A DNA stretch of 37,988 bases from positions 1 through 37,988 of IMG/VR virus record IMGVR_UViG_3300029951_000071; one strand, 5' to 3'. Positions 19,310 to 34,920 of this stretch are shown here, one piece after another (the first letter of the stretch is position 1; every line of letters begins with the position of its first letter). Below the pieces are notes generated by a model that was not told where the DNA came from, made no database searches, and saw only the letters and a list, made by a program, of their open reading frames with translations. A program made the translations under genes and the position numbers. The DNA is from a virus.

Positions 19310-20655
19310 AACTCAAGCCCCCTCGCAAAACCAAGCTTGTGAAGTTCGGTCAATTGGCGCTTCATGCGGCCCGCGCCGATGTCGGTACGATAGGCCGGGT
19401 TGTTCGGAATCTTGACCTTGCCGATAGCGTTATATGCCGAGCGTCGCGCTGCGGTGATGGTCGATCCGGTGCCGGTGACGATAAGCGGCATGTCGCCGGT
19501 AGTAACCAAGCCGGGCATATCTACCACCTTGTCGCCGATCATCATAGGACGCATGTCCATCTTGACTTCGTTGAGGTGAACATGCCGCCAGTCTTCCGCG
19601 CCATTGACCGGAATGCCGACGAGCTTATGGTTGATGACGTTCTTGGACGGAAAGCCGGGCAGCGTGTAGACGATGGAAACGCACACCTCGCCATCGACAC
19701 ACTCAATCGTGTCCTTGCCGTTCACTAGATCGAGCATCCACTGAACCGGGTCTTCGTTCTTGATGTGCGCCGTGATGTTGTGACGCGTCGGCCAGCCGTC
19801 GCGCATGGTAAATTCCATCGGCCACGGAGCCTCGGCATTGATCATGCAATTGTTGTCGATGTAGCCGACATACCCGACCTTTTCCAGTTGGGCGGTCAAG
19901 GGCTTCAGCACCATGTCTGCCAGCTTCGACTTGGTGACCATGCGCGATAGGGTGCCCATCTCGCCGGTAGCCACGCCCAGGTCATCGTTGTGCATCTTCT
20001 TGTACTCGAAATTCTCGTACCACCACTTGGACCAGCCGCCAGGGCCAAACCAGCCGCCAACCGCCATCTCGATACCCTTGATCTTCTCCTGAAGGATGAA
20101 GCCGCTGCTGCGCGCTTCCTTGACCAGATTAGGCTTCTTCTTCCACTGCTGAAGCATGTAAATCAAATCATCCTGGCCGCTGGCCACGTAAGACATCGAC
20201 TTGTCGTTGCTCACGTCGCCAGATGGCTTGCTGACCAGGTATGAGGGGTTTTTGCGGACAAAGGCGATAGCCGCATCGTGGTCGTGGAATTCGACCGTGG
20301 GGATGACGGCCAAGCCGGCCTTCTTCATGACCAGTTGGCCGGCGTTGCGATCGGTCTCCCACGCGCTGCTTTCCGGGGATGGAGCGACGATGGGATAGCC
20401 GCGCAGGCGGTAGGGTTCGAGATTTTCAAGATAGAGGTCGTTGTAGGGCAAATAAATAACGTCCGCCCAATCCATCCACTTGGCCCATATTTCGTTGAAA
20501 TTCTTGATTTTTTCGACCATGCCATCGCCGGAGCAGCGCGGTTCCCCGCCGTCGTATGGGCGATCCCACCAGCGGCAATCCCACCCAGCTAATTGCGCAC
20601 GCAGAACCATATCAAGGCAGAATCCGCCACCATCGAGAATCAAGAGTCGCTTCAC
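19306..20655 (-). CDS. PurD-like ATP-grasp ligase
   Basis: 449 residues. The N-terminus MKRLLILDGGGFCLDMVLRA is a Rossmann-like start. KKAGLAVIPTVEFHDHDAAI, YLVSKPSGDVSND and FILQEKIKGIEMAVGGWFG follow the order of an ATP-grasp domain. LGVATGEMGTLSRM corresponds to the TGGMG element of phosphoribosylamine-glycine ligase (PurD), and YVGYIDNNCMIN then WPMEFTMRDGWPT to its metal-binding end. Most canonical residues are shifted or replaced, so substrate identity is open. ATP-grasp enzymes join a carboxylate to an amine via an acyl phosphate. It is coupled (ATGA) to an ejection protein gene in the structural operon, not to nucleotide genes, which argues against simple purine synthesis. Confidence 0.72.
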   Translation of the reverse strand: MKRLLILDGGGFCLDMVLRAQLAGWDCRWWDRPYDGGEPRCSGDGMVEKIKNFNEIWAKWMDWADVIYLPYNDLYLENLEPYRLRGYPIVAPSPESSAWETDRNAGQLVMKKAGLAVIPTVEFHDHDAAIAFVRKNPSYLVSKPSGDVSNDKSMSYVASGQDDLIYMLQQWKKKPNLVKEARSSGFILQEKIKGIEMAVGGWFGPGGWSKWWYENFEYKKMHNDDLGVATGEMGTLSRMVTKSKLADMVLKPLTAQLEKVGYVGYIDNNCMINAEAPWPMEFTMRDGWPTRHNITAHIKNEDPVQWMLDLVNGKDTIECVDGEVCVSIVYTLPGFPSKNVINHKLVGIPVNGAEDWRHVHLNEVKMDMRPMMIGDKVVDMPGLVTTGDMPLIVTGTGSTITAARRSAYNAIGKVKIPNNPAYRTDIGAGRMKRQLTELHKLGFARGLEF

Positions 20656-22928
20656 TTCATAACCTCGCTGCCAATGAAAACAGCAGTACCGAGACCAGCA
20701 ATGCGTCCGGCGATCTTGCGCGCTAGGCGCGTGCGCTCCGCCAGCGTGTTGGCGCGGCTGACCAAATCCATGGTCGCCTTGTACTTGGCTGGATCGATCA
20801 GGCCCGCGCTACGCTCGCGGGCCAGTGCATTCATGTAGCCCTGGAATGCCTTTTCCTTGCTGGCCGCATCCGGCATGGCATTCAGCGTGTCAGCCATGTC
20901 GATATCGGTTTTCATCTTGTTAGACGCTTCTTTGGCTTGGGCGGCACGGCCTTGTGCGGCCTTGGCATCTTCGGCAAGCTTTGCGCTGCGCTGCTCAAGC
21001 GCAGCACGAGCTTCAAACCTAGTCGAAAGCCGCTCAGCAACCTTTGGCACAGACGAGAGAGTAGCCTGCATTTTTGGCGCGGCCAGATGTGCCCCGGCGC
21101 TTTCGCCACTCATTTCCTTTGTGTCTGCCAAAATCCAGTTTTCGGTCATCTTATCGACCAATGCCTTGGCCTGGTCACGGGCAGTGCCGGTAACTCCCTG
21201 GCCACCAGCAATCGCATCCTCGAATATTTGACGATTGACCGAGTTGCCAAACACCTTAGCAGGCAAATTCAGCGGCGCGGTCTTCGGGTATCGGTTGCCC
21301 TGCAAGCCACCCTCAGTGTCGTTGAAAACCTTCCCCAGTCGTGTAGACAAGGAAACAAGCGGCTCCGATAGCTTCCGGTACGTGCTGGATGCCTGCTCAT
21401 AGGCTGGAACGAATTGTTTCAGCGATGCATCAATAGCGTCGGCTGCTTCTCCATAGGCATGCGTGATTTCCGACGAAAAACCATTCATTTCGCCGGTCGC
21501 CTGCATATCGCGGAAATAGCGGGCGGTAAAGACTAGTTGCTTGAAATTCTTGCCTTGCACCGGCTCAGGTGCCGTAGGGGCGCGAGGATCGAATGTTTTC
21601 TGGATTTCCGGGGCCTTGGGCGGAGCGAGCTTTTCTCGCATCAGTTCGTCATACCGGCCAGCGGTTTTTTTCCCGGCTAGGGCTTCCGCGTCCACCTGAT
21701 CCATGACTTGGCGCTTCAGGCGTGCCATTTCGCCGGGGGATACCGTTCGCTGCGCCGGCTGCGCGACAACCTTCTTGCTGCCCTGGCCAACCGATGAAAG
21801 CATTCCATCAACCTCGCTCTCAAGCGGAGTGTCTTTTACGAGCGTTTTCAGCTTGAGCAGCGGTGCGCGTGCGGTCGATATATCCGGCGAAGAGCCAGAC
21901 GCCTCCAGCGCAGCCCCATCGGCCTCGGCTTGGTCATAAAGCGGCTTGGTAGCCGTCTTGCGGGCATCGATCCCAGACTTGATAGCCGCTTTGTAGGTCG
22001 TATCCGTCGTCGCGCCCTGGTTTTCCAGATTTGGCACGGCTTCGCCAGCAGAATTACTGCGTGGCTGTTCCAAATGCTGATTCAGATTGGTGCGTAGCTT
22101 TTCAAGGTTTTGAGCGTGCGCCGCCTCGCTTGCGGCAAGGCTATCCTGTTGCGCGGCGGCGCTTTCGAGCGCCTCCCTACCGGAAGCTGCGGCCGCTTGG
22201 CGTGCCGGAGGTATTGCGGTGCCGCGCACATCATTGATAGCACCCCTTGCTGTGTCTACGGCAACGCCAGGGGCGCGCAAGGCACTTGTCCCGGCCCTTT
22301 GTCCGGCAGCGATAGCGGAGGCCGCCATATCACCACCACGATCTACTATAGGAGCAGCCAAACGACCGGCCTGACGAGCAACAGATGGAGCCTGACGCGC
22401 AGCATTCACGCCCGAGCCGAATTCAGGGGCTAATCCCTCGATGCCAGATTCATGGATAAAATCACCGAATTTCTGCTGATAGTCTCGTCCTGTCTGCGTC
22501 ATGGGGGCTAAGCTGAGCGTCTGCCGATCAAAGAAGTCACGCGCCTTGTCGGCGTGAAACATATCGGCCACGCCTGCGCCGAACGCAGGAACGAATTGAG
22601 CGCCGGTAGAAAATGCGACATTAGCCGCGCCAAACGGCTTGTCAAGAACCGTGCCAGAAGCTTTCGCCGCCTGGTCGAGAGGATGGTGTTCGAACTCGGA
22701 TACCGATTGATTCAGGGAATCCATGAAGCCTGGAGGCTGAATATCTTTCCTGGCATCATCGGCCTTTGCCATATACTGATCGGCACTCATCGGCGATTTT
22801 TTTGCGCCAGATGACGCGCCGCCAATCCGCGATTGAAGAATCTGGAAAGCCTGATCCTTTGTCGCGCCATCGGGGCCATCAATGCGATAAGTTTTCCCTT
22901 CCGGGGATGTTAATTCAAAGGTGGGCAT
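20652..22928 (-). CDS. Large internal virion (ejection) protein
   Basis: 758 residues. It starts MPTFELTSPEGKTYRIDGPD and continues ATKDQAFQILQSRIG, a short N-terminal module that I know from the start of many phage internal and tail-associated proteins. The rest is long, helical and Ala/Gln/Lys-rich (SAAAQQDSLAASEAAHAQNL, FEARAALEQRSAKLAEDAKA), with a C-terminal hydrophobic LGTAVFIGSEVM. Three such proteins in a row near the end of the late operon fit the ejection proteins of podoviruses (P22 gp7/gp20/gp16 or T7 gp14-16 type), which form a channel across the envelope. No lytic transglycosylase motif was found. Confidence 0.65.
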   Translation of the reverse strand: MPTFELTSPEGKTYRIDGPDGATKDQAFQILQSRIGGASSGAKKSPMSADQYMAKADDARKDIQPPGFMDSLNQSVSEFEHHPLDQAAKASGTVLDKPFGAANVAFSTGAQFVPAFGAGVADMFHADKARDFFDRQTLSLAPMTQTGRDYQQKFGDFIHESGIEGLAPEFGSGVNAARQAPSVARQAGRLAAPIVDRGGDMAASAIAAGQRAGTSALRAPGVAVDTARGAINDVRGTAIPPARQAAAASGREALESAAAQQDSLAASEAAHAQNLEKLRTNLNQHLEQPRSNSAGEAVPNLENQGATTDTTYKAAIKSGIDARKTATKPLYDQAEADGAALEASGSSPDISTARAPLLKLKTLVKDTPLESEVDGMLSSVGQGSKKVVAQPAQRTVSPGEMARLKRQVMDQVDAEALAGKKTAGRYDELMREKLAPPKAPEIQKTFDPRAPTAPEPVQGKNFKQLVFTARYFRDMQATGEMNGFSSEITHAYGEAADAIDASLKQFVPAYEQASSTYRKLSEPLVSLSTRLGKVFNDTEGGLQGNRYPKTAPLNLPAKVFGNSVNRQIFEDAIAGGQGVTGTARDQAKALVDKMTENWILADTKEMSGESAGAHLAAPKMQATLSSVPKVAERLSTRFEARAALEQRSAKLAEDAKAAQGRAAQAKEASNKMKTDIDMADTLNAMPDAASKEKAFQGYMNALARERSAGLIDPAKYKATMDLVSRANTLAERTRLARKIAGRIAGLGTAVFIGSEVMK

Positions 22929-24652
22929 TATTTCACCTCTTTAATCGACCATCCTGCGGGAATGCCGCCAGCGGCAGGGGCATCTTCGCGAGCCTTACCG
23001 GGGCGTTGTTTTTCCTTGGCTTTCTCGTAATTTTCGATACGGTTTTTACCTTCGGCTTTGATTGCATCAGCCACTTCATTGAACGAGGCCGGCGTCATGT
23101 TCATGTTCATCCACTTTTGCGCCTCTTCGGCAGCTCCTTGGTGAAGTTGCGCGGCGGAAGCCTGACCACCAGATTGTAGACGTGCTGCCTCGGTCGCCAC
23201 GCCGTTCATGTAGTAGTACAGGCTGGAATACTTCGGGTCGCCTGTCCACTTTTCCTCGCCACGGGCAATTGAGTTGACGATCGGAGAGAGGTTGCTCGAA
23301 GTAAGGCCAGCCATGGCTTTCTTGGCTTGACCGATGTTGAAGTCCAGTTGATCGACGGCGGCACGAGTCGCACCAAGCATCGTATCCAGTTGGCCGACAC
23401 TGCGCTTGCCGCCAGCGTAATCAACGGTACGATTGGCATATTCTCGGCCAGCATCAATATCCGACATGCCGGGATTATCGGCCTTGATCTGCTTGATGGC
23501 CTCGGATTGCACCTTTTCACGCGCTGCTACGGCCTCCTTGCCGTAGCCGGGAATGACCTGACTGAGCGGCATGCCGGTTGCTGCCATCGCGCCACGCGCC
23601 GGCAAATCCTTGGCATCCACGCCAGAACCACGGCTGGCCGCATCCTTTTCTCTTTCCAGTGCAAGCCGACCACGGGCCACGCCGAGATTGCCCTGCTGCA
23701 CGCCAAGTTCACCCTTCTGATATTCGGCAGTGTTCTTGTCGCGCACCTGAGTTTCGGCCTGCGACTGCTTGAGCAATACCGCCTTATATGCCGCATCGGC
23801 GGCGCTTTGTGCCTTTTCCGTGATCTGCAAAGCCTCTTGGCGCTGTGCTTCCATGGCCTTCAGCTTGGTCTGCGCAGCGGGCGAATTGGCGAGGTATTGC
23901 GCGGCCTGCTGGTCGGCCTGCTGTGGCGGAACGCCGTTGGCAATCAGGTGCTTCATCACGTTCTGCTTCATGACCGTGTAGGAGTCCGGCCCGGTCGCCA
24001 GCTTCATGATCTGCGCGGCAGCGGCTTGACTGGCCTGTTCCGGCGTGGTATCCGCGCTCTGGAATGGCGATCCGCCTTGCATGGACCCGGGCGCGGGCAT
24101 GCCGCCGCCAGCCGCACCAGTCGGAGGCGGGGCCATAGGAACGGGCGCCTGCTGTGGCGCCTGCTGTTGGCGCTGCTGCATAGCTTGCATGCTCTGGTAT
24201 GGCGGAATCTGCGCCGGGGGCGCTGCCTGTTGTGGCGGAGCCGGTTGTGCGGGCGGCATCGGTGCGCCCTGTGGCGGGGCCATCTGCTGCGGAGGCGCCC
24301 CAGGAGGCGGACCCTGCATGCCCATGCCATTCATTAGGCCAGGCGGAATGCCGCCTGGCGCTTGGCTTTGCGGCTGGCCTTGGGGCGGACCTTGAGGTGC
24401 TTGCTGCATCGGCACGGAAGCCTGACCGAGCGCAGGAGGTTGTGGCGCCGGGGGCGGCGTGAAGGCATCCTCATACCCGGCCATCTGATCCCATTGCTGC
24501 GATTTGGCTTGCTGCGATCGTGCGTTATCCAAGGCAATGGCTTGCATCGCCATTAACTGCTTTTTGTATGCCAAATCGGTAGCTTGCGCCGCATTATCGC
24601 GGTTCGCCTGCATGCCGTTCAGGATGCCCTGGGAAATGCCGCCCGTGAACAT
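22928..24652 (-). CDS. Pro/Gln-rich internal virion (ejection) protein
   Basis: 574 residues. A helical start (GISQGILNGMQANRDNAAQA) is followed by about 130 residues made almost wholly of Pro, Gln, Ala, Gly and Met (about 70-200), then a long helical region (YKAVLLKQSQAETQVRDKN, QLDFNIGQAKKAMAGLTSSN). It has no catalytic motif. It is packed end-to-start with its neighbours (overlap of one base on both sides). Composition and position support an internal DNA-ejection protein. The Pro/Gln block is likely a flexible spacer. Confidence 0.65.
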   Translation of the reverse strand: MFTGGISQGILNGMQANRDNAAQATDLAYKKQLMAMQAIALDNARSQQAKSQQWDQMAGYEDAFTPPPAPQPPALGQASVPMQQAPQGPPQGQPQSQAPGGIPPGLMNGMGMQGPPPGAPPQQMAPPQGAPMPPAQPAPPQQAAPPAQIPPYQSMQAMQQRQQQAPQQAPVPMAPPPTGAAGGGMPAPGSMQGGSPFQSADTTPEQASQAAAAQIMKLATGPDSYTVMKQNVMKHLIANGVPPQQADQQAAQYLANSPAAQTKLKAMEAQRQEALQITEKAQSAADAAYKAVLLKQSQAETQVRDKNTAEYQKGELGVQQGNLGVARGRLALEREKDAASRGSGVDAKDLPARGAMAATGMPLSQVIPGYGKEAVAAREKVQSEAIKQIKADNPGMSDIDAGREYANRTVDYAGGKRSVGQLDTMLGATRAAVDQLDFNIGQAKKAMAGLTSSNLSPIVNSIARGEEKWTGDPKYSSLYYYMNGVATEAARLQSGGQASAAQLHQGAAEEAQKWMNMNMTPASFNEVADAIKAEGKNRIENYEKAKEKQRPGKAREDAPAAGGIPAGWSIKEVK

Positions 24653-25623
24653 TACACGCCTCCGTACCCGTAGCCAGCGTTAGAATTGGATGCCCAAATC
24701 GATTGCTGATCGGAATTGCTCATTCCAGACTGGCCGTATTGCGATCCGCTACCCGAGTTGAACATGTTGCTAAGCCAAGAGCCGGGAGACCCCGAGTTTT
24801 GATTGGAAAGACTCTGCGTGAGCAGGTTCATGTTCGCCGAATTCTGCTGCGTGTTATAGCCGGTGTTGTATTGCTGCGCGCCCTGACCACCAGTGATGTA
24901 AGGCAGTGCCTGCCCGGTGACGTTGCCATACAGCGATCCGAGACCGCCCATTTCCTGCGTGTAGGCCGAGGCATTGGCTGCGGGCTGGCCAGCGACATAC
25001 TGCTGCGCCGACAGCGGCACGCCTGCGGCCTGCTGCATGTAGCCTGCGGCCTGCTGTCCCGCGCCAGTCTGTCCGGTGAAGGCTTGACCCATGGCCTGAA
25101 TGCCCTGCTCCTCGTTCTGAAGCTGTTGGGTATTCCAGCCGGTCTGGAAATTCGCCATCGTGTTGTTCAATTCCTGCCCCCCAACTGGCGAATTGCCCAA
25201 ACCACGCGCCGCCTGACCGGCATTGACCTGCCCAGTCAGTTGGTTCGCATTCATGTTGTACTGCGCTTGGTTCGGGTTGAACGCGGCCTGATAGAGCGCG
25301 TTTCCGGCTGCGCCGTAGGTATTGGCCTGATTCTGCGCAACTCCAGCCATGTTGCCGTATTGCTGGCCGGCCTGGTTAGCGGCATTTAGGTATGGGCTGT
25401 AATTGATGCCCTGCTGCTGGGCAAGGGATTGGGCATACAGTGGCGCAGAAGCGTCATAGCCGGTATTGGCGACGTTTTCCAGTCCATTGAAGCCCGAAGC
25501 CCAACCGCTGTTTGCGAGATTGGTGTTCGGGCCAGAAAAGGCCGTAGTCGGGCTGCCGCTGCCTTTACTAGAATTTACGGCGCCTAGGACTGCTGCGCCT
25601 GCGCCGATCCACGCTGCTGGCAT
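24652..25623 (-). CDS. Gln/Asn/Gly-rich ejection protein
   Basis: 323 residues. It begins with a hydrophobic N-terminus (MPAAWIGAGAAVLGAVNSS) and then is very rich in Gln, Asn, Gly, Ala and Tyr (NAANQAGQQYGNMAGVAQNQ, GAGQQAAGYMQQAAGVPL). This resembles the smallest of the three podovirus ejection proteins (P22 gp7-like), which enter the cell envelope with the DNA. It overlaps the oxygenase gene by 40 bases. The absence of charged residues is unusual and suggests insertion into or along the membrane. Confidence 0.65.
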   Translation of the reverse strand: MPAAWIGAGAAVLGAVNSSKGSGSPTTAFSGPNTNLANSGWASGFNGLENVANTGYDASAPLYAQSLAQQQGINYSPYLNAANQAGQQYGNMAGVAQNQANTYGAAGNALYQAAFNPNQAQYNMNANQLTGQVNAGQAARGLGNSPVGGQELNNTMANFQTGWNTQQLQNEEQGIQAMGQAFTGQTGAGQQAAGYMQQAAGVPLSAQQYVAGQPAANASAYTQEMGGLGSLYGNVTGQALPYITGGQGAQQYNTGYNTQQNSANMNLLTQSLSNQNSGSPGSWLSNMFNSGSGSQYGQSGMSNSDQQSIWASNSNAGYGYGGV

Positions 25624-26243
25624 GTTGCCTCCACTTGGTCATCCATCGACCAGCCCTCCGGCGCAAAGGGAATCCTCGCGCCACGATCTAGTTTAATGCA
25701 AACCGTCAACACAATGTGATCCGTACCGCCATCGTTAATGACGAAATGGCAATTTTCATTCCTGAAGTGATGCACGTCGCCGGGGCGCTGCCGCATCATT
25801 TCGCCACACTCATAGCCAAAACCTGCACTTTCGTTGCTCGACAAGCATATGTTGAATTTTTCATAGAATTCGGGATGCCAACCCCAATCCTTATGAGGAT
25901 AGATTTTCTTTCCTGGCTCCAGCTTATAGAGGAACACGCCACCAAGCATTTCGCCCTGCACGCGGGCCATCAGGTCAAAGATGATCTTGCGCGCACTCGG
26001 CAGGAAATCGGCGGCATGATACCACTCGGGAATATGCTCATCGCTGAACTTCAGCCACTCATTGAAGTCGCCCATGCCGGGACGGTCATCCTTGTAGCGC
26101 AAGATGATGTCTTGCGTCTCATGGTGCGGCGCGATCTTGCCCAGGCGGCACGGATTCCGATTCCACAATTCCGGCTGCCGCTGAATCTCCAGCAGCAGGG
26201 GCATCACATCGACGCCGGAAGCAATTTGCAGGAAATTTTTCAT
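25584..26243 (-). CDS. 2OG-Fe(II) oxygenase, Asp/Asn beta-hydroxylase family
   Basis: 219 residues. The core has IYPHKDWGWH (iron ligands His117 and Asp119), then GYECGEMMRQRPGDVHHF and CHFVINDGGTDHIVLTV with the distal His166. The order HxD ... GE...PGDVH.F.N...H...N.....I.L matches the aspartyl/asparaginyl beta-hydroxylase group (PF05118-like), which also includes the lipid A hydroxylase LpxO. The conserved Arg that usually binds 2-oxoglutarate is not evident at the usual place. It is coupled (ATGA) to the sulfotransferase-like gene upstream. The substrate is unknown: peptidyl Asp/Asn/Pro or lipid A are the family precedents. Confidence 0.78.
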   Translation of the reverse strand: MKNFLQIASGVDVMPLLLEIQRQPELWNRNPCRLGKIAPHHETQDIILRYKDDRPGMGDFNEWLKFSDEHIPEWYHAADFLPSARKIIFDLMARVQGEMLGGVFLYKLEPGKKIYPHKDWGWHPEFYEKFNICLSSNESAGFGYECGEMMRQRPGDVHHFRNENCHFVINDGGTDHIVLTVCIKLDRGARIPFAPEGWSMDDQVEATCQQRGSAQAQQS

Positions 26244-26809
26244 GTCGCAATAACCGTCCTCGGGATGGAGTAATGCGTAGCCAGATAATTCACGGCAGTG
26301 CGCACGTCGGCCTGAATATTGATGTCCTTCATCATCAGGAACCGGCCTTCATCGAAAGCCTCACCTGGCGTGAGGTGCCAAAAAATCTTCTGCATGGTGC
26401 GCATGTCGCTCAGCAGGTGATACGGCACGCGCAGGATGCCCTTCTCGCCGCTGTTGAAGCCGGCAAGCGACTTATGCAGGATTTCGCAAAAGTTCGTACG
26501 CGGCAGTCCGGTCTTCAGCGCGGCAAGCGATGCCTCAACCTCATCAATGGGCCGGTCGATAATCAGAACGCGGGGCGCATATGTATCGATGATGTTCTGC
26601 AACTGGAAGCCGAGGCCGCTATCGGAAATGCCGATGTGACTGATCTTTCCGGGAGTTTTCCCATTAACAGGAAAATAGGCATTTTCAAGCCAAAGATGCT
26701 CCCAATTGCGCGGCTCATGCAGGCATACCGCCTTACCGGCAGTCATGAACGAAGCCATCCACGCAGTACGCGAGCGCGGCAAGCCGGTGATGAAAAAGCG
26801 ATTAGGCAT
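26240..26809 (-). CDS. P-loop sulfotransferase-like protein
   Basis: 189 residues. Start at the ATG 26809, eight bases inside the end of the preceding gene; a longer open frame upstream is only a shadow of that gene. NRFFITGLPRSRTAWMASF is the PAPS-binding P-loop form (GxPRSxTxW). APRVLIIDRPIDEVEASLAA has the 3'-phosphate-binding layout (VLI.R.P.D...S). HEPRN follows the P-loop as in other small sulfotransferases. It is shorter than usual (about 250 or more). Such enzymes transfer sulfate to a hydroxyl or amine. It directly precedes a hydroxylase gene (ATGA), suggesting the two act on one substrate. Confidence 0.68.
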   Translation of the reverse strand: MPNRFFITGLPRSRTAWMASFMTAGKAVCLHEPRNWEHLWLENAYFPVNGKTPGKISHIGISDSGLGFQLQNIIDTYAPRVLIIDRPIDEVEASLAALKTGLPRTNFCEILHKSLAGFNSGEKGILRVPYHLLSDMRTMQKIFWHLTPGEAFDEGRFLMMKDINIQADVRTAVNYLATHYSIPRTVIAT

Positions 26810-27119
26810 AGTAGCTGATGTCCAAGATCGGCGAGCCGCTGTCAACGATGAATTGAATGGCCTCCATCTGTCCGCCGTAGTCCAATTCCGAGTTGGCCGG
26901 GATGACCATGCCGACAGTCGCAGTCGGGGGCGTACCGTCATCGCGCCAGCGCACCGTACCAGCCGTGTTGTTTTGAACGATGGCACGCCGAATGGGCTGC
27001 CCATTAATGGCTGCCGGGATCGTGAATTTTTGCGCGGTAGCGAGCGTTGCTGCAACGATCTGCTGGTAGCCAAGAGGCCGCTCGTAGCCGAATACGGTCG
27101 TATTAGATTGATAGCCCAT
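26802..27119 (-). CDS. Small beta-rich virion-like protein
   Basis: 105 residues from the ATG at 27119 (GAGGAAA upstream). Strand-rich throughout, with VRWRDDGTPPTATVGMVIPA, a motif I know from small structural proteins of many phages. No signal or membrane segment. It overlaps the sulfotransferase-like gene by eight bases. It is likely a virion or tail accessory protein and is the nearest candidate substrate for the two modifying enzymes. Confidence 0.62.
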   Translation of the reverse strand: MGYQSNTTVFGYERPLGYQQIVAATLATAQKFTIPAAINGQPIRRAIVQNNTAGTVRWRDDGTPPTATVGMVIPANSELDYGGQMEAIQFIVDSGSPILDISYYA

Positions 27120-27128
27120 GTCGTTTCC

Positions 27129-27779
27129 TCAGAATGAAAATTCCAACGCAGCAGTGGGCGAATAGCCCTTGTAAATGCCGGGCACCGCATCGCCCTTGGC
27201 ATGCGTCGGAATAGCCGACAACAGGAAAGCCACATTGCCGGTGATGCGATAGCCCACAGATAGGAATGGATCGTACATGATCTTGTTGTCATGCGTTTCC
27301 TGGCCGAACTGGGGCGCGCAACCGTAGCACCCAACGAAGTCAGGAACGACTTCGTGCCACGTCGGGCGCGTCGCCATGACGCCGCCCTCGATGATCCACG
27401 AATCGATGTTCTTCCGCGCCGCGATGAATACCCCATCCACCTCGCCAGAACCGTACCAGTGCGACAGGGGCAGGCACGCGCCATTGCAATGCGTCGGAGA
27501 ATTGGCATTGTAATTCCAATCCTCGCCCACGGCCAGCGCGGAAGAAGTTGCCTTGCCGATGTAATCATAACCGGCGCCGAACTGCCAGCCATCTTCTGAC
27601 TTGTCGGTGTAATACTTCAGCGCGACAGACGGCGAAGTCATGTGCAAATCGTACGGAAATCCCTCCTGATACCAGATGCCATTCCCGGCTTGGCTAAAGT
27701 GGGTCGCGCCCAAGTCGAGCATGATTTCGCCAGCAAAGCACTGGGAGCAAAACAGCATCAAGAGGGCTGCATATCGCAC
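27129..27779 (-). CDS. Outer-membrane beta-barrel-like protein with signal peptide
   Basis: 216 residues. MRYAALLMLFCSQCFA-GE is a Sec signal with an A-type cleavage site. The mature part alternates hydrophobic and polar residues in strand-like runs (PSVALKYYTDK, GWQFGAGYDYIG, YDPFLSVGYRITGNVAFL) and ends GYSPTAALEFSF, with the C-terminal Phe that the Bam machinery recognises. Four cysteines (CNGAC, CYGC) suggest two disulfides in loops. A phage-encoded outer-membrane protein brings Lom of lambda to mind, which changes the host surface. It could block superinfection or aid lysis. It sits among late genes. Confidence 0.72.
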   Translation of the reverse strand: MRYAALLMLFCSQCFAGEIMLDLGATHFSQAGNGIWYQEGFPYDLHMTSPSVALKYYTDKSEDGWQFGAGYDYIGKATSSALAVGEDWNYNANSPTHCNGACLPLSHWYGSGEVDGVFIAARKNIDSWIIEGGVMATRPTWHEVVPDFVGCYGCAPQFGQETHDNKIMYDPFLSVGYRITGNVAFLLSAIPTHAKGDAVPGIYKGYSPTAALEFSF

Positions 27780-31731: not shown

Positions 31732-34700
31732 TTAATGAATTGCAATGCCTGTTATTGATGTCGAGTCAGTTCCCACCGTAAAAGGAGTCAATTCGGACAA
31801 AGTCCCATTTGTGCCACATGAGAATTGATACACCAATCCGCTATCAACTTCGCCAACGTAAAAATATTTACCATCTGGCGAAAAGGCAGGAATCTTTGGC
31901 AGCGTGCCGCATGCGACAGTGGCAGGGCTGAGCGCAGCAAGAGTGCCATCGGAGCCGATAGAGTATTGAACAACGGTCCCATTATCCTGATTGGGGACAT
32001 ACAAATTATTTCCGTTCGGCGATATAGCGATAAAGTAGATTTCACTGCCGCAGGCAATCGGGGTTCCTGCGATGGAAATCGTCCCATTTTCGGAAATGTT
32101 ATATTGAAAAACAGAACCAACTCCGTCACTTGTGCCAAGGGAGTATAGGTAGTTTCCATTTGGCGTAACTGCGATTCCATTGCACCCCAAATACTGATTC
32201 ACATAAGGCGGATCGAGCGCCGACAAGACCCCAGTATCGCTAATGGCGAATTGGAATATATCTTGTCCTCCCACCACATAAAGGAAATTCCCAGTGGGGT
32301 GAACCGCCACATATCCAGACGCTGCACCACAACTTACGCTACTCAATTCAACCAAGTTCCCGTTCTCCGAAACGGTGTATGTATAAACCTCATTGCCGCC
32401 AAAAGTGTAGACATAATTTCCCGATGGATGAATAGAAATTCCACTGTTACCAGGAGTTGTTATGGAAGCGGCTGGCAACGGGGTAAGCACGGCGGTGCCC
32501 ACATTGCGAGAAAATTGGTAAATATATCCAGAACTATCGACGCTATAGACATATAAACCATCAGGCGTAGTAACCATTAATCCAGGAGCGGGACCGCACA
32601 AAGTGGACGCCGGCGAAGTCGGCGATAACTGACCATTTGAAAGCCTACCAAACGAATAAATCGAGCCATACACATTCACGGGATAGACGGAAACATAAAG
32701 CGATGAAAAGATTGGCGTTGCCGAAGCCTGATTCGAAGGGCCAGACTCTCCGGCAGCATTGACAGCAGTCACCACATAGTAATAGGTGACATCGTTCGTC
32801 AGGCCGGTTTGCGTGTATGTGGTTTCCGTGATACCGCTTATTTTCGTGCCGCTTACCCCCGCACCCGGCGTCAGTGACCAATACAAATTGTAGCTTGTAG
32901 CGTTGTAGACATTGGTCCAGCTTTCTACGGTCTCCAAGTTTTCGCCCACTGCAGTCAAATTCTGCGGCGCGGCGGGAACGGCTGGTGCGGGCGACGGCGC
33001 GACATAGCTCCACGGCCCGATAACGTTCGTATAGCCGCAGTCTCGGTATTTGGAAAAAATCGTGCCGATTGCCAAATTGTAGGAAGAGGTCGCGGACACC
33101 TGATAGGCAAGCTTTTTGAAAACAAGCGGCGCCGGCCAAGGAACCTGATACGTCCATGGCTGAATATTCGACTGACTCCACAAAGAGCCATCACCCCAAG
33201 TGAAGCTGCCCCAAGTAGGAAGCGGCGTTAGGATCGTGATGTCGGCGGTGCCCAGCGTCTGATCGTGATCATCAATCGAATTTATCGTGTAATCAAGAGA
33301 CGCGGAAGCCGTCGATAGCTCGATAGTGGATTCGATCACCTGCTTTTGATTGATATTCGATGTCTTCGGCAGCATTGAGCTTTGCAGGAAGACCGATAGG
33401 GCTACGCCGTTGTCGTTGTAGACCGAACTCAAAGAGGGGATATATTGGCTTGCCCAAAGCGTCGGGCCGTTTTCCGCGCCCGATATGACAAAGTAATTCC
33501 CTGCCTGAGTGGCGCAATCGTACTGGAAGGAATGCGGACCGCTCCAGCGCCGCTTCGTCACGTCGAACCAATAATCGAAGCCTCCCTCGACGCCATCAAT
33601 CACGGTCTGCATGCAAATCCGGTAAATGCTGCCGGTGAAAGCTGCGGCAGCGCGGGACGGATCGATGATGTTTTGGAATGGCCGCTGGATGTCTGGGACG
33701 AGGCTGTTGGAGCTATTCGTCAGGGGTAGCACCTGCCCAAGCGGCGATACGAAGTATGGCCCATCGAATCCGGCGAAGATCGTCCCGACTGGCGTTTGCA
33801 CGATAGAGCGAGGCGCTTTGGTGCCGCCCGTCAGAGACAGAAAATCTTGCGCGAGCGTACCGGTTATGGCTTCATCGCCAGTGATTTGCCAAATCTGAAA
33901 TTCTTTGAATACGATCAGCGCACCCACCACGCCGGATGTCGTTGTTTCAATAGGCAGCCCGCAGAATCCTTGAATCGGCGTGGGGTCGCCCAAAGTCAGC
34001 GCCTGGCCCGCATTGGTCATTTGCGTCGGGAACAAAACATCGCTGAAATAGGCCGAATTCGCGCACGCAAAATAGGCGCGGTTATTGAAGTTCGTGACGG
34101 CAGCAGGAACCGAAGGAAGCGGGAAAATACCCGTATTCGTCGCGTAGTAATAAGGCGCCTGCGGGTTGCCGATATTAATCACGCCGAAATAGGCAAAGCT
34201 CGAAGCCGTCATCGACTCAGAAGCGACGCCATCTACCACCGTGTTATTCAGTGTATAGGTGCCAGCACCGCCGAATGTGCCACTGCCAACGATAAAGCCA
34301 TTGATTACTGTTCCGGCGGGGACATCAGTGCCGGATATATTGCTTCCAAGAACAAGTGTTCCGGTCACAACTGTGACTATCAATTCCGATCCACTTATAG
34401 AGGCTGTCAATGTGGCATTGATGGGCAATGCGCTGTATCCGGGGTGTGTGACTATGATCTGATCGCCGATCACCGCCATGGTGGGCGGAACCCAGTCACC
34501 AGATACTGCCGGCGAGGCAGGGAGGTTCCCGGCGTTCGAGCCAGATACCGGGATGAACTGGTCGGCATTCAGGTCGTAGCAAAACGGCACATCATAGGCG
34601 CCATAGATCGTGCAGGAGACCATGCCGTAGACCAGATTTCCGATGGCCACCTGCACGCTGATGAAGGTCGCACCAAGGAAGCCGGAACTCCAGTTACCCG

Positions 34701-34920
34701 TGCCCCACGTGAAGGAACCCCAAATCAGCGCATTGGGGTCATCAAGATTGACGATGCCGGAGCCGACGCCAGGGCGCGCAATTACAAGTTCGGGATCGGT
34801 CTGCGCGAAAATCAGGTTCGTGAGATAGCGGCAAGCGCCGACGAATGTGTCCGTGGCGTCCCATGCATCGGACAAGCCGCGAGGGGTGAAGCGGACAGGG
34901 TATTCTTTGGCGTTCGCCAT
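31732..34920 (-). CDS. Giant tail hub protein with FN3 and C-terminal beta-propeller
   Basis: 1062 residues. The N-terminal about 640 residues (MANAKEYPVRFTPRGLSDAW, CRYLTNLIFAQTDPELVIAR, RPFQNIIDPSRAAAAFTG) resemble the hub proteins of podovirus tails (P22 gp10 or T7 gp12 type). They include an inserted Ig-like module (TLTASISGSELIVTVVTGTL) common in phage structural proteins. Residues about 650-740 are a fibronectin-III domain (AAPQNLTAVGENLETVESWT; TYYYVVTAVNAAGESGPSNQ). From about 741 to the end are seven repeats of about 46 residues of the lactonase/YncE beta-propeller type (HPSGNYVYTFG, SPNGNNLYVPN, SPDGKYFYVG). The extra C-terminal domains could bind host glycan. Confidence 0.75.
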   Translation of the reverse strand: MANAKEYPVRFTPRGLSDAWDATDTFVGACRYLTNLIFAQTDPELVIARPGVGSGIVNLDDPNALIWGSFTWGTGNWSSGFLGATFISVQVAIGNLVYGMVSCTIYGAYDVPFCYDLNADQFIPVSGSNAGNLPASPAVSGDWVPPTMAVIGDQIIVTHPGYSALPINATLTASISGSELIVTVVTGTLVLGSNISGTDVPAGTVINGFIVGSGTFGGAGTYTLNNTVVDGVASESMTASSFAYFGVINIGNPQAPYYYATNTGIFPLPSVPAAVTNFNNRAYFACANSAYFSDVLFPTQMTNAGQALTLGDPTPIQGFCGLPIETTTSGVVGALIVFKEFQIWQITGDEAITGTLAQDFLSLTGGTKAPRSIVQTPVGTIFAGFDGPYFVSPLGQVLPLTNSSNSLVPDIQRPFQNIIDPSRAAAAFTGSIYRICMQTVIDGVEGGFDYWFDVTKRRWSGPHSFQYDCATQAGNYFVISGAENGPTLWASQYIPSLSSVYNDNGVALSVFLQSSMLPKTSNINQKQVIESTIELSTASASLDYTINSIDDHDQTLGTADITILTPLPTWGSFTWGDGSLWSQSNIQPWTYQVPWPAPLVFKKLAYQVSATSSYNLAIGTIFSKYRDCGYTNVIGPWSYVAPSPAPAVPAAPQNLTAVGENLETVESWTNVYNATSYNLYWSLTPGAGVSGTKISGITETTYTQTGLTNDVTYYYVVTAVNAAGESGPSNQASATPIFSSLYVSVYPVNVYGSIYSFGRLSNGQLSPTSPASTLCGPAPGLMVTTPDGLYVYSVDSSGYIYQFSRNVGTAVLTPLPAASITTPGNSGISIHPSGNYVYTFGGNEVYTYTVSENGNLVELSSVSCGAASGYVAVHPTGNFLYVVGGQDIFQFAISDTGVLSALDPPYVNQYLGCNGIAVTPNGNYLYSLGTSDGVGSVFQYNISENGTISIAGTPIACGSEIYFIAISPNGNNLYVPNQDNGTVVQYSIGSDGTLAALSPATVACGTLPKIPAFSPDGKYFYVGEVDSGLVYQFSCGTNGTLSELTPFTVGTDSTSITGIAIH

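Follow-up and report, generated by a model that had tools for sequence, protein, structure and literature searches.

Two overlapping genes of a phage, one encoding a sulfotransferase-like and the other a hydroxylase-like protein, stand directly before the genes for DNA ejection, and the question is what such enzymes do at this place: do they modify one residue in two consecutive steps, do they act on the host, or do they modify, each independently, the particle under assembly?

The locus

By gene content (terminase to ejection block), the window, i.e., the entire analysed stretch, a 37,988-base IMG/VR contig, represents a P22/T7-like short-tailed phage, with genes for terminase, portal/head–tail adaptor, major head protein, tail fibre, and phage lysozyme in addition to the ejection block. 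The order of transcription on the minus strand is a gene for a 105-aa protein (26802..27119), P1 (26240..26809, 189 aa, a small P-loop sulfotransferase-like protein), P2 (25584..26243, 219 aa, a predicted 2OG-Fe(II) oxygenase of the Asp/Asn- and proline-hydroxylase type), and three ejection-block genes. P1 and P2 together occupy exactly 25584–26809; the stop of P1 and the start of P2 share the ATGA at 26240–26243, and the start of P1 at 26809 overlaps by 8 nt the end of the 105-aa gene at 26802. P2, in turn, overlaps by 40 nt the first ejection gene, whose ATG at 25623 is preceded by GGAGG.

The product of this gene (24652..25623, minus strand), a first ejection or internal virion protein at a position like that of P22 gp7 or T7 gp14, matches an ejection-family HMM built on the respective gene of the relatives (E 2.9e-41), and the related family C2 matches phrog_598 “DNA ejection.” It is followed on the same strand by a second, proline-rich ejection-block protein (22928..24652; 55 Pro, up to 17 per 40 aa), whose relatives stand after the ejection gene in loci L151, L159, and L096, and by a third, large one (20652..22928; HMM C7, E 6.2e-10).

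The earlier note on this DNA placed the pair in a structural module, and its late position adjoining the ejection genes bears this out, as does homology the reality of both genes (at least 359 relatives of P2 in viral contigs, and 247 and 152 relatives of P1 in two scans for its family). The label “virion-like” given there to the 105-aa protein finds no such backing: it has no family match in Pfam and PHROG profile searches, and one weak relative, at L159. Further upstream (27129–27779, minus strand), a secreted beta-barrel-like protein with a signal-peptide-like start, possibly a receptor-masking protein, has neither a family match nor a relative in about 400 fetched loci; being private to the window among them, this outer-membrane-like neighbour loses the value that the note had given it as an argument for a role at the host surface. 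Another protein of the window (31732–34920, minus strand, 1062 aa) is related, in its head-closure/tail-like part, to 79 ORFs from these loci, and also contains fn3 and a seven-bladed beta-propeller (PF10282, 6e-17), in an apparent fusion.

Predicted activities of P1 and P2

The AF2 model of P1 (pLDDT 87.5) has as its best PDB matches the tyrosylprotein sulfotransferases TPST1/2 (Z 12.7, 169 residues aligned), and as its best match in the viral fold library “Sulfotransferase family” (E 2.7e-10). The identity to TPST1/2 is about 18–19%, and the matched chains have about 275–300 aa vs 189 aa of P1. The likeness to PAPS sulfotransferases extends to the motifs: P1 has the PRSxTxW 5′-PSB (PAPS-binding) loop, GLPRSRTAW, in residues 9–17 (26759..26785, minus strand), the 3′-phosphate-binding motif R86-x7-S94 (26528..26554, minus strand), and an acidic/His residue after strand 2. 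In the alignment of 62 family sequences, P11, R12, S13, and W17 are invariant, T15 is retained in 61, R86 in 60, and S94 in 58. A difference from PAPS sulfotransferases is His31 (26717..26719, minus strand) at the inferred base position; this candidate catalytic base, part of a C-x-H-E/D motif, is conserved in 62/62 sequences, with Glu (35) or Asp (27) at residue 32. From the SULT/TPST active sites, we take R12, H31, and R86/S94 to be PAPS-binding or catalytic residues. P-loop kinases trail sulfotransferases for the P1 fold (Z about 11 vs 12.7), and since the two scores are close, the assignment relies on motifs and fold together; the candidate role of a kinase was set aside, the Walker-A Lys being missing from the loop and R-x7-S being kept.

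Sequence searches place P1 in phrog_10855 (E 6.9e-14), whereas Pfam yields nothing at the cut-off, the best score within the family being that of the L153 protein (PF13469, 21.7 vs 27 bits). The missed cut-off is a matter of the library threshold and not a biochemical feature, and P1 is a “divergent relative” of sulfotransferases. The profile of its family has no significant match among PDB sequences, and P1 as the sole query finds nothing in a close-relative scan of viral contigs, so that the family alignment is required; a genome scan with P1 gives three matches only, none informative about the host. The same family includes the phrog_10855 “hydrolase” of PaMx11/Pamexvirus-type Pseudomonas phages (about 25–31% identity by tblastn). 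In PaMx11, ply2008005c, and phiH1, this gene is found away from the ejection module, in the neighbourhood of replication genes (PaMx11, phiH1) or lysis genes, and has no hydroxylase with it. P1 is most likely an enzyme that would transfer sulfate from PAPS.

P2 (AF2 model, pLDDT 92.2) shares the double-stranded beta-helix with AspH (PF05118) and the L-proline hydroxylases (4p7w, 1e5r), the fold matches being 7v4m (Z 16.0), proline 3-hydroxylase (15.1), L-proline cis-4-hydroxylase (14.8), and AspH (14.3); the profile matches are L-proline cis-4-hydroxylase (4p7w, 2.6e-7), proline 3-hydroxylase, and AspH (5apa, 4e-5). Shared with AspH and the L-proline hydroxylases are also the HxD...H triad and N170. 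In P2, the triad consists of His117-Lys-Asp119 (25887..25895, minus strand) and the distal ligand His166 (25746..25748, minus strand), and its two His and Asp, as well as N170, are found in 113/113 relatives. The position ten residues after the distal His, which anchors 2OG, is Arg in 102/113 relatives and His176 in P2 (25716..25718, minus strand), as in its four nearest relatives (L009–L012). This position corresponds to R735 of AspH, for which R735Q/W variants are among the solved structures. P2 further differs from AspH in being a stand-alone domain and in a sub-cut-off PF05118 score (14.1 vs 22.6), whereas two relatives score 36.5 (L009) and 59.3 (L016). LpxO, the lipid A hydroxylase brought up in the earlier note, is a membrane-associated PF05118 enzyme; in P2, no membrane segment is obvious by eye. 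P2 is thus a divergent member of the Asp/Asn- and proline-hydroxylase-like 2OG-Fe(II) oxygenases, and likely uses 2OG.

Hence, motif, profile, and predicted fold agree with the two enzyme types that the earlier note had named. It had also proposed checking the pockets by structure prediction: the PAPS motifs and the iron triad are indeed kept, and the 2OG pocket is imperfect, with His176 in place of Arg.

The position before the ejection genes in related viruses

The closest relative of both P1 (about 50% identity) and P2 (61%) belongs to one locus, L009, with the same gene order and likewise an overlap of 8 nt. In a broader set of 83 hydroxylase-bearing loci, the hydroxylase gene typically stands directly ahead of ejection genes, 40 of the C2 family and 23 of the C8 family being found at most four genes away, and the proteins encoded beside it fall into clusters of mini-cupins (37 members), GNAT acetyltransferases (33), and P1-type proteins (4). 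A gene upstream of the hydroxylase in L001, suspected from its length to encode a sulfotransferase, is unrelated. Of 160 loci with a P1-type gene, 87 belong to a tail/ejection module and 29 include a hydroxylase; the cupin and the GNAT gene are absent from all 160. For less bias, the ejection proteins themselves were then used as scan queries, and all scans were pooled and near-copies removed, which left a non-redundant set of 177 loci anchored by ejection genes.

The position before the ejection genes is a conserved enzyme-exchange slot with mutually exclusive partners. Exactly one of cupin (67), GNAT (40), and sulfotransferase (57) is present in 164/177 loci, and two are present in 0/177; with the hydroxylase taken into account, there are 44 loci with cupin and hydroxylase, 23 with cupin, 37 with GNAT and hydroxylase, three with GNAT, 37 with a P1-type gene, 20 with a P1-type gene and hydroxylase, three with hydroxylase only, and ten with none of these. 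Of the 71 loci recovered with ejection proteins as queries, 46 have the cupin and 15 the GNAT, with no locus having both (Fisher p 3.6e-9, ancestry uncorrected), and P1-type genes are rare (one). The genes are tightly packed, the median gap being 7 nt from the stop of the last enzyme to the start of the ejection domain, and about 0 nt between enzymes. Both enzyme families are already known in phages; for the slot with its mutual exclusion, we found no description in the open papers searched.

Those of the loci with none of these enzymes that were examined mostly contain GNAT-like proteins of 120–130 aa. Such proteins just upstream of the ejection gene in L331, L336, L339, L355, L385, and L394 are weakly similar to T7 gp13; one of the small GNAT-like proteins of the slot matches Acetyltransf_10 at 0.0015, and one matches phrog_308 at 0.03, with residues 75–118 of gp13 aligned. 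In L258 (3872–4876), the gene directly before the ejection gene encodes a radical SAM enzyme that has a zinc ribbon of the HMPTM type (PF23545, 6.4e-15; PF04055, 1.2e-5); with it, the slot includes yet another sort of tailoring enzyme. A hydroxylase and GNAT pair of the podovirus type is encoded by the 39-kb genome of Limnohabitans phage DC33 (PQ492659.1, locus L003), yet the public record is classified in Inoviridae, which is likely a taxonomy error.

The pairing seen in the window recurs in 20 non-redundant loci, in both gene orders, and in the 116-row tree of the P1 family the association with the hydroxylase needs 20 changes, at least five of them forced by well-supported branches. The window's clade (30 rows, support 96) is almost entirely, in 29 rows, from a tail/ejection context; 54 of the 116 distinct relatives of P1 fall outside any recognisable context of this kind. 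In L151 and L159, the P1-type gene lies between two reading frames that resemble a hydroxylase, one strongly and the other weakly. Co-occurrence of the two genes in relatives, suggested in the earlier note as a further check, is therefore recurrent, but not the rule: 37 of the 57 non-redundant P1-type loci in the ejection context are devoid of the hydroxylase, and the latter has a cupin (44) or GNAT (37) as its partner more frequently than a sulfotransferase (20). The pair thus recurs and is under selection or, at the least, is tolerated, but it is obligate in neither direction, which argues against a dedicated two-step path and for independent enzymes in a common slot.

Possible roles of the pair

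We propose, with about even confidence, that the pair is one state of a slot in the late tail/ejection module, and that P1 and P2 are independent enzymes modifying a virion protein during assembly. Both would probably be made late, in the cytoplasm, with translation coupled to that of the ejection-protein gene; P1 would most likely transfer sulfate from PAPS, and P2 would most likely hydroxylate with Fe(II) and 2-oxoglutarate. Among virion proteins, those of ejection or of the tail tip would be the likeliest targets, and P1 and P2, encoded where T7 has gene 13, would themselves serve morphogenesis without being structural. P1 is replaceable by a mini-cupin or a GNAT acetyltransferase, and either can occur without P2. 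The anatomy of the genes, the folds, the active-site motifs, and the conservation and exclusivity of the slot are shown by the analysis, from which we infer catalysis, its timing, and that the substrates are virion proteins: with catalytic residues strictly kept and a late position coupled to the ejection gene, modification of virion proteins is the most economical reading.

The comparison with T7 is positional. Gene 13 of T7 (PF11090, internal virion protein A / probable scaffold protein) stands directly before gene 14, as the slot stands before the first ejection gene, and a GNAT beside internal virion proteins has been equated with T7 gp13, with a suggested role in virion morphogenesis (PMC6775973). 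At the same time, the folds of P1 and P2 are unrelated to gp13, neither protein matches PF11090 or phrog_308, homology of the slot GNAT (family C5) to gp13 was not detected, and the sequence link of the slot GNATs in general is weak to absent.

Several observations weigh against modification of virion proteins. The position of a gene is by itself no proof of its function, P-loop kinases nearly equal sulfotransferases on the fold of P1, and P2 is devoid of the usual 2OG Arg. Modification of virions is no intrinsic property of the P1 family, given its many members in other contexts. Finally, neither the Pro nor the Tyr content of ejection proteins convincingly tracks the hydroxylase or the sulfotransferase. 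Proline-rich ejection proteins were considered as a hydroxylase substrate and rejected, since a weak difference overall (p 0.036) disappears among P1-type loci (p 0.59) and follows the lineage; the tyrosine richness of the ejection protein shows no significant difference.

Alternatively, the slot may be a cargo hot spot whose products alter surface molecules or metabolites of the host (superinfection exclusion, auxiliary metabolism). We consider this unlikely, yet host-directed action is still a serious rival, because P1-type genes occur in non-structural regions, including those of Pseudomonas phages, and because the literature usually labels genes of this sort auxiliary metabolic (PMC12195039, PMC10580990, PMC11288001). 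The closest profile match of P2, a hydroxylase of a free amino acid, L-proline, points the same way. However, the overlap with the ejection gene and the strict occupancy by one partner over distant lineages are unlike loose cargo, and no conserved outer-membrane or LPS gene accompanies the pair.

Both proteins could also act without catalysis, their folds being retained to help assembly as chaperones or to form minor parts of the virion; a role of this kind has been proposed for T7 gp13, which occupies the position and is a “probable scaffold protein” in Pfam. Such a role would be in line with the similarity of the cupin partners to tail-fibre families, with the lack of a chemical relationship among the folds exchanged, and with the loss of the 2OG Arg in the subclade to which the window belongs; still, the constraint is of a catalytic type, with invariant iron ligands in 113/113 relatives of P2 and invariant PAPS-loop residues and His31 in 62/62 sequences of the P1 family, making this explanation improbable. 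Tyr, Ser, and Thr are acceptors of sulfate independently of prior hydroxylation, so sulfation is possible without it, and the path that the earlier note favoured, with P2 hydroxylating a residue and P1 sulfating the new hydroxyl, is very improbable despite the adjacent, overlapping genes of the window and L009 and the recurrence of the pair in both orders, as most P1-type loci have no hydroxylase and most hydroxylases have another partner.

The function of phage sulfotransferases has been stated to remain unclear (PMC10580990). On hydroxylated or sulfated phage particles, open-licence papers yielded nothing relevant, an absence that is weak evidence. Extending the proposed modification of virion proteins, it is possible, although we lean against it, that short-tailed phages tailor their own ejection and tail proteins with one slot swapping the chemistry (sulfation, acetylation, hydroxylation, cupin, radical SAM), and that the phage of the window has both hydroxylated and sulfated virion proteins. 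In the isolates Pseudomonas phage PfAn1 and Limnohabitans phage DC33, both of which have the hydroxylase together with a GNAT, virion modification is directly checkable by mass spectrometry. It is routine to class the oxygenases and sulfotransferases of phages as auxiliary metabolic genes that act on the host; the slot points instead to virion assembly. With its conservation and its mutually exclusive occupants, the slot also places gene 13 of T7, which is poorly understood, in a shared context, and the small GNAT-like proteins, with their weak similarity to gp13, would tie the slot to this long-puzzling gene.
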